From an uncultured Sphingosinicella sp. (GTDB taxonomy: Bacteria; Pseudomonadota; Alphaproteobacteria; Sphingomonadales; Sphingomonadaceae): a stretch of DNA of 64,000 nt. Positions 55,652 through 62,972 of this stretch are shown piece after piece. How positions within the stretch are numbered: position 1 is the first letter of the stretch; every line of letters begins with the position of its first letter. A program made the position numbers and the translations under genes. Where the stretch lies: assembly GCF_902806315.1 (NCBI RefSeq), contig NZ_CADCWD010000033.1:1-64000 (forward strand), read 5' to 3'. The notes under the pieces were generated by a model. That model was not told the origin of the DNA, ran no database searches, and worked only from the letters and a program-made list of their open reading frames with translations.

Positions 55652-56314
55652 TCAATCTTCGAGTGAGCCTGCTGGATCCCGGTCGCGGCTGAGGTCGTCG
55701 ACTTCGCTCATGATCGATTGCAGCGCCGTCTTGTTGACGTCGGTCTCGTGATCGCGGCGTGACGGAAGCTTGCCGTCGGTGAGCAGCGCCTCCAGCGCGA
55801 CGCGGCCGCGCGCGACGCGGCTCTTGATGGTTCCAACCGCGCAGCCGCAAATCTCGGCTGCTTCTTCATAGGCGAAGCCGCCAGCGCCGACCAGGATGAG
55901 CGCCTCGCGCTGCGGCTGCGGCAGGTGCATCAGCGCACGCTGCATGTCGCCAAGCTCTACATGGCGGTCCTGGCTCGCCGGGGCCGCTAGCAGCTTCGAG
56001 GCCGTCAACTCGTCCCACTCGCCCTTGAAGCGCGCGCGGCGCATCTGGCTGAGGAAGAGGTTGCGAAGGATGATAAAGGTCCAGGCCCGCATGTTGGTGC
56101 CCGCCTGAAAGCGCTTGCGCGCCGCCCAGGCCTTGAGCAACGTCTCCTGCACGAGATCGTCGGCGAGGTCGCGGCTGCCGGACAGCGAGCGCCCGAAGGC
56201 GCGCAGATGCGGGATCACCTGGGCAAGCTGATCCTTGAATTCATTGTCGGGGAGCGGAACGGGCTCTTCCCGAACCGGATTCTCTTCCGTCAATGCTGGC
56301 TTATCGCCGGCCAT
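55652..56314 (-). CDS. ecfG: General stress response sigma factor EcfG
   Basis: The Met at 56314 follows GGGGG at good spacing (track Met 8 codons earlier also possible); 220 residues. Sigma region 2 (residues ~35-105) shows LSGSRDLADDLVQETLLKAW and NMRAWTFIILRNLFLSQMRR. Region 4 (~130-190) shows HLPQPQREALILVGAGGFAYEEAAEICGCAVGTIKSRVARGR. These are typical ECF15 features. It recognises GGAAC...CGTT promoters and is held by NepR until phosphorylated PhyR removes NepR. It lies downstream of phyR and a 45-aa membrane protein, not beside nepR. Confidence 0.93.
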   Translation of the reverse strand: MAGDKPALTEENPVREEPVPLPDNEFKDQLAQVIPHLRAFGRSLSGSRDLADDLVQETLLKAWAARKRFQAGTNMRAWTFIILRNLFLSQMRRARFKGEWDELTASKLLAAPASQDRHVELGDMQRALMHLPQPQREALILVGAGGFAYEEAAEICGCAVGTIKSRVARGRVALEALLTDGKLPSRRDHETDVNKTALQSIMSEVDDLSRDRDPAGSLED

Positions 56315-56413
56315 CAAGCCCCCAATCACAGCAGTCATGAAACGCCGCCGCCGCGGCCTACCCGCCGGGGCGACAGGCTCCGGCGGAACGAATTGTTACG
56401 GCTAGGTATGAGC

Positions 56414-56551: not shown

Positions 56552-56684
56552 AAGCGCGTTCAATCCTGTTTCAGCATGCAACTTAGAACCGCCAACGCCT
56601 GCTCGGTGAGCCGGTTCCCGTTTGCGACGGAAGCCTCTCTGTCGCGGCTCCCGTCAGGCAAACGCGGATTTCCCGCGGCTCTCC

Positions 56685-57479
56685 TCAGGCGGGAACCGTT
56701 GCGCTGTCGAAGAACAGGGCCTGCGCGATCGCAGCCTTCACCGTCGAACGCTGGAACGGCTTGGTGATGAGGAAGGTCGGCTCCGGCCGCTCGCCGGTCA
56801 GCAGCCGCTCCGGGAAGGCGGTGATGAAGATCACCGGCACGTTGAATTCCTGGAGGATGTCCTTCACCGCATCGATGCCCGAGCTGTCGTCGGCGAGCTG
56901 GATGTCGGCGAGCACCAGGCCCGGGCGGCGCGCCAGCGCCTGGCTGACCGCCTCGTCGCGGGTAACGGCCACGCCGGTGACGCTGTGACCAAGGTCGCGG
57001 ACGATCGTCTCGATGTCCATCGCGATGATCGGCTCGTCCTCGATGATCAGCACTTCCGCGCGGGTCTGGCGCTCGATCTCGGCCAGCGCCTCCGCCACCA
57101 GCGATTCCACCTCGTCGGGTTCCGCCCCGATCAGGTAGCCGGTATCTTCCGGGGTGAAGCCCTCCATCGCCGTCAGCAGCAGCGCCTGGCGCGAAAGCGG
57201 AGTGATGCGGGCGAGCCGCGCTTGGGCGATGCCCTCAGGGTCCGACGCGTCCGATCCTTCCGGATCTTCTTCGATGTTGGCGGACGACCAGATGGCGTGA
57301 AAAGTGCGATAGAGGCCGAGCCGCGGGTCGACGCCGCGCGGGAAATCGTTCGGCGCCGCTACGATCGCCTCCAGCGTCGCCCTGACGAAGGCGTCACCAT
57401 GGCCCTGGCTGCCTGTCAGGGCGCGCGCATAGCGCCGGAGAAAGGGAAGGTGCGGCGCGAGTTCCTGACCGAGCGACAT
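56685..57479 (-). CDS. phyR: Anti-anti-sigma response regulator PhyR
   Basis: A 264-residue protein: residues 1-~135 are a sigma-like domain that mimics EcfG (LPFLRRYARALTGSQGHGDAFVRATLEAIV; then PLSRQALLLTAMEGFTPEDTGYLIG), and ~140-258 a receiver (VLIIEDEPIIAMDIE with Glu147/Asp148, phospho-acceptor Asp192 in LVLADIQLAD, Thr220 in VIFITAFPE, Lys240). When phosphorylated it binds NepR and frees EcfG. It is divergent from nepR with 289 bases between the starts. Confidence 0.96.
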   Translation of the reverse strand: MSLGQELAPHLPFLRRYARALTGSQGHGDAFVRATLEAIVAAPNDFPRGVDPRLGLYRTFHAIWSSANIEEDPEGSDASDPEGIAQARLARITPLSRQALLLTAMEGFTPEDTGYLIGAEPDEVESLVAEALAEIERQTRAEVLIIEDEPIIAMDIETIVRDLGHSVTGVAVTRDEAVSQALARRPGLVLADIQLADDSSGIDAVKDILQEFNVPVIFITAFPERLLTGERPEPTFLITKPFQRSTVKAAIAQALFFDSATVPA

Positions 57480-57639: not shown

Positions 57640-57768
57640 TCCAAGCCCACGCGGGCACCATATGCGTTCCCGCAGCAATGATCTGTGCATTTGGTGGGCG
57701 GCAGGCGCTTTACCGAGGCGCTTGGAATAGGTTGGCGAGCGGAGACGCTTGTTTAGGGGTGGAATCAT

Positions 57769-57975
57769 TTGACTTTCGCGCGTGAAAAGGATGGCGAACG
57801 TCGGTCAAAATCCGATCAGCAAGCCGAGGCCGAGACCATCAACACATCTTATCCCAAACGGAAGAAGCGGGTCGACAGCCCTGAGCTGGGGAGCGCGCTC
57901 AAATCCGTCTATCAGCGCACCGTCGACGAGGATATTCCGCCGGATTTGCTCGATCTCCTCGGCAAGCTTGGATAA
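57769..57975 (+). CDS. nepR: Anti-sigma factor NepR
   Basis: Starts with TTG behind an AGGGGTGG ribosome site; 68 residues. A charged, disordered N-terminus (EKDGERRSKSDQQAEAETIN) precedes the two-helix NepR core (LGSALKSVYQRTVDED and PPDLLDLLGKLG) that clamps EcfG and is taken over by phosphorylated PhyR. It is followed 27 bases later by the phyP-like gene, while ecfG is 1.5 kb away on the other strand. Confidence 0.92.
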   Translation: MTFAREKDGERRSKSDQQAEAETINTSYPKRKKRVDSPELGSALKSVYQRTVDEDIPPDLLDLLGKLG

Positions 57976-58002: not shown

Positions 58003-59571
58003 GTGAACAAAGAACAAGGCAGGCTTGCATTCAGGGGCGATCGGCGAATGCCGACCGGCCTCAAGATGCTTCTTTACCTCAGCCTGGGGTTGCTTCCGCT
58101 CGGGCTGATCGCGGTTCTGGCGTCGATCGAGAGCGCGCGGGAGAATCGGGCGGAGCATCTCGAGGAATTCCAGGCACGCGTGCAGCTCAAGGCGCAACGC
58201 ATCGAGAATGCGGTCGCCAGGAGCATGTTGATGCTGCGCGCCGCGAGCGCCGCGAGCGATCCCTCCGACAGTCCTGATCTTTGCAGCCGCACTCTTCAGC
58301 GCCTCAGTCGCGCCGAAGCTCTGCCGGGCCGCTATGCGCTCTATTCCGCCGGCACCTTGCGCTGCTCGACGCCGGGCTACAGCCCGCCGATGTACAGCGC
58401 GGTGCGCGGCGAGAGCACGCGGATCGAGCTCGCTCCGGGCGGGAACGCGCTCCGCTTCGTCGTGTTCGAAGAACGCGGCTGGATCGAGGGCAGCGGCGAA
58501 TTCACGCGTGAGGCGCTGGCCCGCTTGACCGACCTTCCCGGCGGCAGGACCAATTATGATCTGATCCTGTCCGGCGACGGCCGCAGCACCAAATTACGGA
58601 GCGGACTGCAACCCGGCGCGATGGATCGACCGGTCGACGTGAGCGCGTCCGCTTTGGGCGGGCGACTGCAGCTTCGGCTCCTGACCAGCGCGGCTCCGGT
58701 CAGCGCCGCCGAGCTCCTTATCATCCTCTTGCCCGTGATCATGTGGATCGCAGCCGCGGCGATCGGCTGGGTCATCCTCGACCGCCTAATCCTGAAGCCG
58801 CTCATGGGCATGCAGCGCGCGATTGCCGCTTATCAGCCGGGCGACCGGCATTTCGCTCTCCCGCAGCTCCGCTCGCCGGCGCGCGAGATCGGCGAGCTCG
58901 GCCTCGCCTTCACTCGAGTCACCCAGACAGTGGCAAGGCACGAGGCCGAGCTGGAGGCCGGGCTCGAGCGCCAGACCCGCCTGGTGCGCGAGGTTCACCA
59001 CCGGGTGAAGAACAACCTGCAGGTGGTCGCTTCCTTGCTTAACCTGCACGCCCGCGGTGCCACCAGCGAGGATGTCGCGGCCGCCTACGCCTCGATCCAG
59101 CGCCGGGTGGACGCGTTGTCAGTCGTGCACCGCAACCATTATGCGGAGCTTGAGGAAAATCGCGGGGTGGCGCTGAAATCCTTGATCTCCGAGCTTGGCG
59201 CCAACCTGCGCGCCAACGCGCCGAAGAATGCCGCCAGCATGCAGATCAAGCTCGACGTCGAGCCTTATTATGCGACGCAGGACGTGGCGGTGTCGGTGGC
59301 CTTCCTTGTCACCGAGGTGGTGGAGTTCGCGATGTTTTGCAGCGCGAAGACCGTCGCGATCGCATTGGAGGGAGTGGACCTCGCAACCGCGCGGCTTACG
59401 ATCGAGTCCGAAGCTCTTCGCGGCGAGGTCCGCTGCGACGAAAGGCTAGCCGAGCGGTTCGACCGGATCGTCACCGGACTGTCGCGGCAGCTCCGCTCCA
59501 GCCTCGACCGCGATTCCGAAACAGGGCGCTACGGGATCAACATCGCGGTCGTGGATAAGGGCGACAGGTAA
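58003..59571 (+). CDS. phyP: PhyP-like sensor histidine kinase homologue with degenerate ATPase domain
   Basis: Starts with GTG at 58003 (Met16 at 58048 is an alternative); 522 residues. TM1 lies at ~22-42, a periplasmic sensor region at ~45-225, TM2 at ~228-255, a HAMP-like segment, then a HisKA_2 helix VREVHHRVKNNLQVVASLLN with His333. The expected HATPase motifs are not recognisable: the N-box reads AFLVTEVVEFAMF and no DxGxG is present. PhyP of Sphingomonas Fr1 is known as a negative regulator acting as a PhyR phosphatase, which fits loss of kinase motifs. Position beside nepR supports this call. Confidence 0.82.
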   Translation: MNKEQGRLAFRGDRRMPTGLKMLLYLSLGLLPLGLIAVLASIESARENRAEHLEEFQARVQLKAQRIENAVARSMLMLRAASAASDPSDSPDLCSRTLQRLSRAEALPGRYALYSAGTLRCSTPGYSPPMYSAVRGESTRIELAPGGNALRFVVFEERGWIEGSGEFTREALARLTDLPGGRTNYDLILSGDGRSTKLRSGLQPGAMDRPVDVSASALGGRLQLRLLTSAAPVSAAELLIILLPVIMWIAAAAIGWVILDRLILKPLMGMQRAIAAYQPGDRHFALPQLRSPAREIGELGLAFTRVTQTVARHEAELEAGLERQTRLVREVHHRVKNNLQVVASLLNLHARGATSEDVAAAYASIQRRVDALSVVHRNHYAELEENRGVALKSLISELGANLRANAPKNAASMQIKLDVEPYYATQDVAVSVAFLVTEVVEFAMFCSAKTVAIALEGVDLATARLTIESEALRGEVRCDERLAERFDRIVTGLSRQLRSSLDRDSETGRYGINIAVVDKGDR

Positions 59572-60376: not shown

Positions 60377-60401
60377 GGAACCCCTGCCCGGCTTCCTCGT
60401 T
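60377..60401 (+). promoter_or_regulatory. Exact sigma-EcfG promoter driving the candidate sRNA
   Basis: GGAAC (60377-60381), 16 bases, CGTT (60398-60401). Both boxes match the GSR consensus exactly. No protein-coding start follows within 280 bases on this strand, but a hairpin-rich RNA and terminator do. Confidence 0.75.
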
Positions 60402-60407
60402 CTGCTA

Positions 60408-60508
60408 TTCGGATAGTGACCTTTTGCCCCCCCGCTCTCGCTATCCAGAACATGAGCCCGGAAGCGCTAACCCTCCCCCCCGGTAGCGCTTCCGGGCTCA
60501 ACATTTTT
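60408..60508 (+). ncRNA. Candidate GSR small RNA (GsrN-like), about 100 nt
   Basis: Directly after the exact sigma-EcfG promoter. Hairpin 1: GGATAGTGA (60411-60419) pairs with TCGCTATCC (60438-60446), 9 bp with one G-U, around an 18-nt loop holding seven consecutive C. A short linker AGAACA follows. Hairpin 2: a perfect 17-bp stem (60453-60469/60484-60500) with a C-rich 14-nt loop, then TTTTT. Caulobacter GsrN is a sigma-T-dependent sRNA with exposed C-rich loops that acts after transcription on stress mRNAs. The similarity here is architectural; I cannot align them. Confidence 0.65.
60453..60508 (+). terminator. 17-bp stem intrinsic terminator of the candidate sRNA
   Basis: TGAGCCCGGAAGCGCTA pairs perfectly with TAGCGCTTCCGGGCTCA across a C-rich 14-base loop. 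The T-run (TTTTT, 60504-60508) starts three bases after the stem. In the reverse direction no T-run follows, so the element is rightward. Confidence 0.75.
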
Positions 60509-60690
60509 CGGGGCATTTTCTTCCAGCTTTGATCGAAATCCTCGGCATGAGATCCTTGGACGCAGCCAGTGCTCCCCTGCGGCGTGCCGTGCGGAAGCGG
60601 CAACCCGGCAGGCAAATCGTTACGGCTTGGAACACTTACGGGCGCGCGGGCATTTACCATCTGCTCAACACAGTTTCGGGAGACACCAGT

Positions 60691-60819
60691 ATGATCCGTA
60701 AAGCCCTCAACATCGTCCTCATCACGGGCGCGATCACGACCCTGGTCGCATGCAACACCATGCGCGGCGCGGGCGAGGACGTTCAGTCCGCCGCGAACGC
60801 GGTCGACAACAAGACCTGA
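60691..60819 (+). CDS. Entericidin A/B-like small lipoprotein
   Basis: The Met at 60691 gives 42 residues: a signal with lipobox (MIRKALNIVLITGAITTLVAC, Cys21) then NTMRGAGEDVQSAANAVDNK, the pattern of entericidin-family lipoproteins, which are often induced by stress and stationary phase. The track's 54-codon upstream extension is rejected because it has no lipoprotein logic. GGAAC-N17-CATT (60629-60654), one mismatch from the EcfG consensus, lies ahead. A strong terminator follows. Confidence 0.85.
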   Translation: MIRKALNIVLITGAITTLVACNTMRGAGEDVQSAANAVDNKT

Positions 60820-62632: not shown

Positions 62633-62972
62633 GATCAGCAACCGATCCGTGGATCGATGGCGCCGGACGCTGGAACAGCGAAAAACAGTCTGCTCACATT
62701 CAAACTCCCTGTACGCCTGCTCACGCGCCACCTTGCGGGCGCCACGCAGGCCCTATTTTTCCCGAAACTGAAGCCGGGCTCCATCGCCGAAAAAACGGCA
62801 CGCCTTTCAAAACGTTCCGGTTGCCGAACAGGCTTGCTCCCTCAAACCTCTATGCGTGTCAGCCTGACACGCACCTGAACACGAAGGTTGATGCGGAAGG
62901 TGAGACATTCACCTTGTTTTAATCATATTTTTGAATATTTATGCATGACATAGGTTAGTTGAGGCTATTCCA
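62633..62972. other. 340-base divergent gap between the L,D-transpeptidase and a small Cys-rich ORF
   Basis: Holds the leftward sigma-EcfG site at 62794-62818 and, near its right end (about 62915-62955), a markedly AT-rich stretch unlike the rest of the window that probably carries the rightward promoter. GTGTCAGCCTGACAC (62847-62861) is a perfect odd palindrome and could be an operator. No further gene is supported. Confidence 0.5.
62794..62818 (-). promoter_or_regulatory. Exact sigma-EcfG promoter reading toward the L,D-transpeptidase
   Basis: On the minus strand GGAAC (62818-62814), 16 bases, CGTT (62797-62794). The predicted transcript start near 62785 leaves a ~150-base leader before the L,D-transpeptidase ATG. 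Confidence 0.7.

Follow-up and report, generated by a model that had tools for sequence, protein, structure and literature searches.

The window analysed here, a stretch of 64,000 nucleotides from an uncultured Sphingosinicella sp., very probably contains a stand-alone gene for a small RNA (sRNA) of about 100 nucleotides, which would be transcribed with sigma-EcfG and act in trans in the mode of GsrN; we put the probability of this reading at roughly 0.85. The predicted gene, previously uncatalogued, lies beside the master genes of the general stress response (GSR). Its parts and its neighbours are the following.

55652-56338, minus strand: ecfG sigma factor gene (Pfam Sigma70_r2, Sigma70_r4_2)
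56685-57479, minus strand: phyR (Pfam PhyR_sigma2, PhyR_sigma-like, Response_reg)
57755-57762, plus strand: G-rich ribosome-binding stretch of nepR, AGGGGTGG, putative pairing site
57769-57975, plus strand: nepR anti-sigma gene, probable TTG start (Pfam NepR)
58003-59571, plus strand: phyP-type HWE/HisKA_2 histidine kinase (Pfam HisKA_2, HWE_HK)
60377-60381, plus strand: -35 box GGAAC of the sigma-EcfG promoter, exact
60382-60397, plus strand: promoter spacer, N16
60398-60401, plus strand: -10 box CGTT
60408-60508, plus strand: predicted sRNA transcript, about 100 nt
60411-60446, plus strand: 5' hairpin of 9 bp, near-invariant in the genus, with stem arms GGATAGTGA (60411-60419) and TCGCTATCC (60438-60446) and the 18-nt loop CCTTTTGCCCCCCCGCTC (60420-60437), given as CCUUUUGCCCCCCCGCUC among the RNA elements, which contains C7
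60447-60452: linker AGAACA, 6 nt
60453-60508, plus strand: terminator hairpin of 17 bp, then U5, with stem arms 60453-60469 and 60484-60500 and the C-rich loop ACCCTCCCCCCCGG, given as ACCCUCCCCCCCGG among the RNA elements
60504-60508: T-run, T5
60691-60819, plus strand: entericidin-like lipoprotein gene (Pfam Entericidin, 22.0 bits, just under the 23.3 cut-off)

The initial annotation had proposed such an RNA, and its promoter, stems, linker, terminator and T-run are each found at the positions claimed; the "seven-C loop" of that annotation is correct as to the run of C7, but the loop itself has 18 nucleotides, not seven. Nine bases separate the CGTT box from the first stem, and the start of the RNA, predicted at about 60407-60410, is deduced from the location of the -10 box. 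The segment 60377-60508 folds at -59.2 kcal/mol (z = -5.9), a stability equalled by none of 200 shuffles, and in its own genome the sRNA scores 130.8 bits with a covariance model, R1. The pattern is genuine, and far from chance.

Taken by itself, the promoter match is weak evidence: GGAAC-N16/17-CGTT has three matches in the window for 0.9 expected, about 3-fold over chance, and 7 of 100 shuffles also reach three. It is conservation that decides the matter. By DNA search, all but one of 26 genomes of the same genus have the element. In these 25 copies the -35 box is invariant and the spacing is exactly 16 throughout, the -10 box reads CGTT in 23 copies, GGTT in one and TGTT in one, and most spacer positions are merely 36-64% conserved: fixed boxes and a fixed N16 amid a drifting spacer are, as far as sequence can tell, the footprint of a promoter. 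Over the family, a correctly placed GGAAC is present in 70 of 71 copies, compared with 0.8% of random windows for GGAAC-N15-18-NNTT. As the EcfG promoter, GGAAC-N16-CGTT has been established in vitro in Sphingopyxis granuli, where the -10 variants in use include GGTT, TGTT and CATT (PMC7083833). The two other exact matches in the window, both on the minus strand, also make sense as putative promoters, given the genes downstream of them: one (56594-56618) is upstream of a conserved small ORF of 55 amino acids between ecfG and phyR, the other (62794-62818) upstream of an L,D-transpeptidase (YkuD) gene. In the same gap as the sRNA, a GGAAC-N17-CATT at 60629-60654, upstream of the entericidin-like gene, is probably a second EcfG promoter.

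Model R1 finds the sRNA in 71 of 201 Sphingomonadaceae genomes, and has no match outside this family among 387 genomes of the class. A second model, R2, built from 60 diverse copies, matches 90 of the 201 genomes, or about 82 once eight weak matches are dropped (G028, G032, G060, G091, G118, G124, G193 and G206). Those inspected had no promoter at the expected place and were excluded for that reason; G124 is a partial match only, and G118 was excluded unread, on its low score and its same-genus likeness to G028. Among the matches listed, carriers include at least Sphingomonas, Sphingorhabdus, Stakelama, Pacificimonas, Rhizorhabdus and Hephaestia, together with Parasphingopyxis, Sphingosinicella and Sphingomicrobium.

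The predicted structure is conserved with the sequence signals. In a MAFFT alignment of the 60 copies, 97.0% of the cells are paired, while slid structures reach at most 49%; compensatory, two-sided changes occur at 17 of 19 stem pairs, with 119 such cells versus 27 in shuffles. The 5' hairpin contributes 7 of its 8 modelled pairs, with 97.5% of cells paired, and the terminator hairpin 10 of 11. The C-loops are kept while the stems vary, as in GGATAG/CTATCC, GGACAG/CTGTCC and GGACGG/CCGTCC. Within the genus, an alignment of 23 copies has mostly invariant columns for hairpin 1 and its loop, including a near-invariant non-C context, CUUUUG..GCUC, and the C/T run of loop 2 varies in length from 8 to 16 nucleotides. 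The initial annotation had proposed that an independent sigma-EcfG-driven sRNA gene stands beside the GSR locus, and that the same gap be compared in related genomes: there, both promoter boxes are kept and the stems covary, which supports the proposal.

The neighbourhood is conserved as well. The window holds the four genes ecfG, phyR, nepR and phyP, all backed by Pfam. Of 60 loci inspected, 40 by manual count preserve the arrangement ecfG-phyR-nepR-phyP-RNA wholly or for the most part; roughly one inspected copy in three does not stand next to the GSR genes. In most carriers phyP is upstream of the sRNA, and in many loci an entericidin-like gene is downstream of it. One genome (G052, locus L437) has a window-like GSR locus, with a PhyR 83% identical, and no sRNA detectable between phyP and entericidin, an apparent loss; ahead of its entericidin gene is a GGAAC-N16-CATT similar to that of the window. 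At the level of sequence, then, promoter, structure, terminator, conservation and linkage to the GSR locus are established.

In most genomes without this first RNA, PhyR shares only about 57% identity with that of the window. These genomes form a sister clade with a different C-loop RNA, also preceded by an EcfG promoter, which diverges from phyR on the opposite strand (loci L438-L456 and L407-L436, for example positions 3252-3391 of L411, plus strand). Its promoter is GGAAC-N16-CATT in nearly all copies, its stem is TCACCGCCG/CGGCTGGTGA, its loop, ACCCCCCUCCCGUCCAAG, hardly varies, and its terminator is strong. The corresponding model, R3, finds this second RNA in 85 of the 201 family genomes, with zero overlap with the 82 carriers of the first RNA, so that about 167 of 201 genomes have either one or the other. 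In a sample of 54 genomes, one per genus, without an accepted copy of the first RNA, PhyR is present in 46, of which 39 have the second RNA; in the eight without a detectable PhyR, neither RNA was found.

The genome of the window contains yet another type, a sibling RNA with an EcfG-like promoter, a hairpin whose loop is a long C-run, and a GCCCCGGC-type terminator. There are at least three copies, on contigs C8 (L152:1868-1981, minus strand), C66 (L322) and C47 (L356, from position 507 onward, plus strand), and further copies are found in other genomes of the genus. Three loci from other genera (L305, L311 and L315) have extra EcfG-promoter C-loop RNAs distant from the main one, which suggests repeated expansion. 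Given the separate RNA of the sister clade and the multi-copy siblings, the restriction of the RNA to "this lineage" in the initial annotation proves too narrow: judging from the distribution, with one or the other of the two locus RNAs in about five sixths of the family genomes sampled, a conserved RNA arm of the stress response is probable.

What appears to be new is the RNA family with its two-loop form, together with the sister RNA and the multi-copy siblings. Scanned against Rfam, neither the whole window nor representatives of the three RNA types reach the cut-off of any family; the weak matches, to mir-671, MIR820, FsrA and others, are artefacts of palindromes. In the open-access literature searched, no description of the sRNA was found: the paper on the EcfG regulon of S. 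melonis Fr1 has none of the RNA terms looked for, and in that of Sphingopyxis granuli (PMC7083833) non-coding RNA occurs in the reference list only. As a kind, C-loop sRNAs under EcfG control close to the GSR locus are already known from GsrN of Caulobacter crescentus. When the whole class is searched for C6 downstream of any EcfG promoter, the matches beyond the family are scattered and, in our judgement, close to background; three of them, folded as examples, have no clear C-loop hairpin with terminator.

The comparison with GsrN (PMC5869019) deserves some attention, and the likeness in design that the initial annotation had claimed is indeed there. Both RNAs have an EcfG/sigma-T promoter, represented here by the exact consensus and the footprint in all 25 genus copies; both have about 100 nucleotides, with a C-rich 5' loop and an intrinsic terminator, a predicted fold in the present case; and both are near the GSR locus, as is the rule in most Caulobacteraceae (PMC5869019). 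In sequence, no homology was detected among the 387 class genomes scanned with R1. The differences are that the loop context is another, the GsrN loop core, reconstructed from the target sites in that paper, being GACGCCCCCCGACUUGA versus CUUUUGCCCCCCCGCUC here; that the terminator of the present RNA has a second C-loop; and that the katG target is absent. In Caulobacter, the 5' loop pairs through six C with G-rich mRNA; the proven target is a G-tract in the first bases of the katG mRNA (PMC5869019). In the genus of the window, 21 katG leaders have neither a G5 within 130 nucleotides of the start nor an EcfG promoter, and katG was rejected as a target there.

Is the RNA then a true orthologue of gsrN, drifted past sequence recognition? 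The shared sigma factor, 5' C-loop, terminator and GSR neighbourhood speak for it, and there is a hint of fast drift within the family: with R3, the model of the sister clade, two outliers of the first family, intermediate in kind, reach weak scores of 23 and 20 bits in full register, so that the first and second RNAs may be diverged relatives, although this is only a hint. Against common descent, the matches of R1 stop at the family border, no promoter-linked match to the reconstructed GsrN loop core is found in the 387 class genomes, the layout with two C-loops differs, and so does the result for katG. We consider orthology unlikely, and GsrN a relative in design.

Other stress-linked sRNAs of alphaproteobacteria, the alpha-r14 or cuckoo RNAs (NfeR1; PMC10746234), also have C-rich, anti-Shine-Dalgarno loop motifs, conserved while the stems vary (PMC10746234). 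They have three hairpins with an identical CCUCCUCCC, a motif absent from 60377-60508, whereas the present RNA, with its two C-tract hairpins, is preceded by an EcfG promoter and has no match in Rfam. It could be imagined that the present RNA acts without specific targets, by titrating a protein that binds C-rich RNA or by masking Shine-Dalgarno sequences broadly, as the two C-rich loops per molecule and the C-run siblings in the same genome might suggest. The near-invariant non-C context of loop 1, which suggests specific pairing, and the precedent of GsrN, which pairs with specific mRNAs, make this quite improbable.

The CcsR1-4 RNAs of Rhodobacter (RF02791; PMC8307010) are stress-induced and have C-rich loops too, but are cut from 3' UTRs and depend on other alternative sigma factors (PMC8307010); RF02791 (CcsR1) gives a weak partial alignment to our terminator loop, at 14.5 bits, far under its cut-off of 65.3. 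Such processing raises the question of whether the present element only ends the phyP transcript, as its terminator or 3' element, or is an RNA cut out of that transcript, the more so as in many genera it directly follows phyP on the same strand. A stand-alone gene accounts much better for the invariant EcfG promoter at a fixed distance, for the two genes, one pyridoxamine-oxidase-like and one an ORF of 62 amino acids, that intervene in the window on the opposite strand, and for the roughly one third of inspected copies that are not beside phyP; furthermore, a terminator needs neither an invariant 5' loop nor a second C-loop. A phyP origin thus seems very unlikely. Finally, a small protein, encoded by an ORF of 55 amino acids on the plus strand or of 188 on the minus strand, is hardly conceivable: the length changes of loop 2 break both frames, marking the segment as non-coding at the sequence level, and base pairs, not codons, are conserved.

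With the stand-alone sRNA gene as the preferred reading, a mechanism can be proposed, for which we infer transcription, dependence on EcfG in vivo and pairing of the loops. RNA polymerase with sigma-EcfG would transcribe the non-coding RNA of about 100 nucleotides, which would therefore be made when PhyR releases EcfG from NepR. It would fold into the 5' hairpin with its C-rich loop and the terminator hairpin with a second one, CCUCCCC-like and complementary to Shine-Dalgarno sequences. Probably with the help of Hfq, which also stabilises GsrN, an RNA processed to a stable 5' isoform, the loops would most likely pair in trans with mRNAs at G-rich leaders or ribosome-binding regions, and so alter how these mRNAs are translated or how stable they are under stress, as GsrN does in Caulobacter.

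Among possible targets, nepR stands out; in Caulobacter, the nepR and sigT mRNAs co-purified with GsrN (PMC5869019). A tract of G4 or more occupies the ribosome-site position of nepR in 23 of 31 carrier loci, where the rate among other ORFs is 14% (relatedness ignored, Fisher p = 5e-13), a count that is based on related genomes and approximate start codons. The nepR of the window itself has only G4, and in the sister clade, where the gene order differs, nepR has no consistent G-tract. For ecfG, a tract of G4 or more is in that position in 16 of 38 cases. The phyR leader has an excess of G5, yet none in ribosome-site position or in pairing energy, and was rejected, as were the leaders of phyP and entericidin, which have no excess of G-tracts; on the whole, the signals in the phyR and ecfG leaders are weak or inconsistent. 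It is thus tempting to conjecture that the RNA pairs with nepR mRNA, so that the level of the anti-sigma factor would fall and the response would be kept up, but this tentative candidate is to be taken as a lead, not as proof.

Within the literature checked, the general stress response of sphingomonads, bacteria abundant on plants, in water and in soil, has so far been described through proteins alone. The present analysis places a conserved RNA arm at exact coordinates and provides a promoter and covariance models for it, along with a hypothesis on nepR as its target, and indicates that most of the Sphingomonadaceae have a C-loop RNA alongside the GSR, although no gsrN-like gene was seen in the Erythrobacter outgroup of the GsrN study (PMC5869019). 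More speculatively still, EcfG might drive a whole set of C-loop RNAs in this family, one at the GSR locus, of two types that exclude each other between clades, plus the multi-copy sibling type, with the RNA at the locus repressing the translation of NepR. If this doubtful scenario were true, the GSR would gain an RNA positive-feedback loop, through repression of NepR at a G-rich ribosome site, and C-loop RNAs would accompany the alphaproteobacterial partner switch almost universally, while themselves turning over fast.
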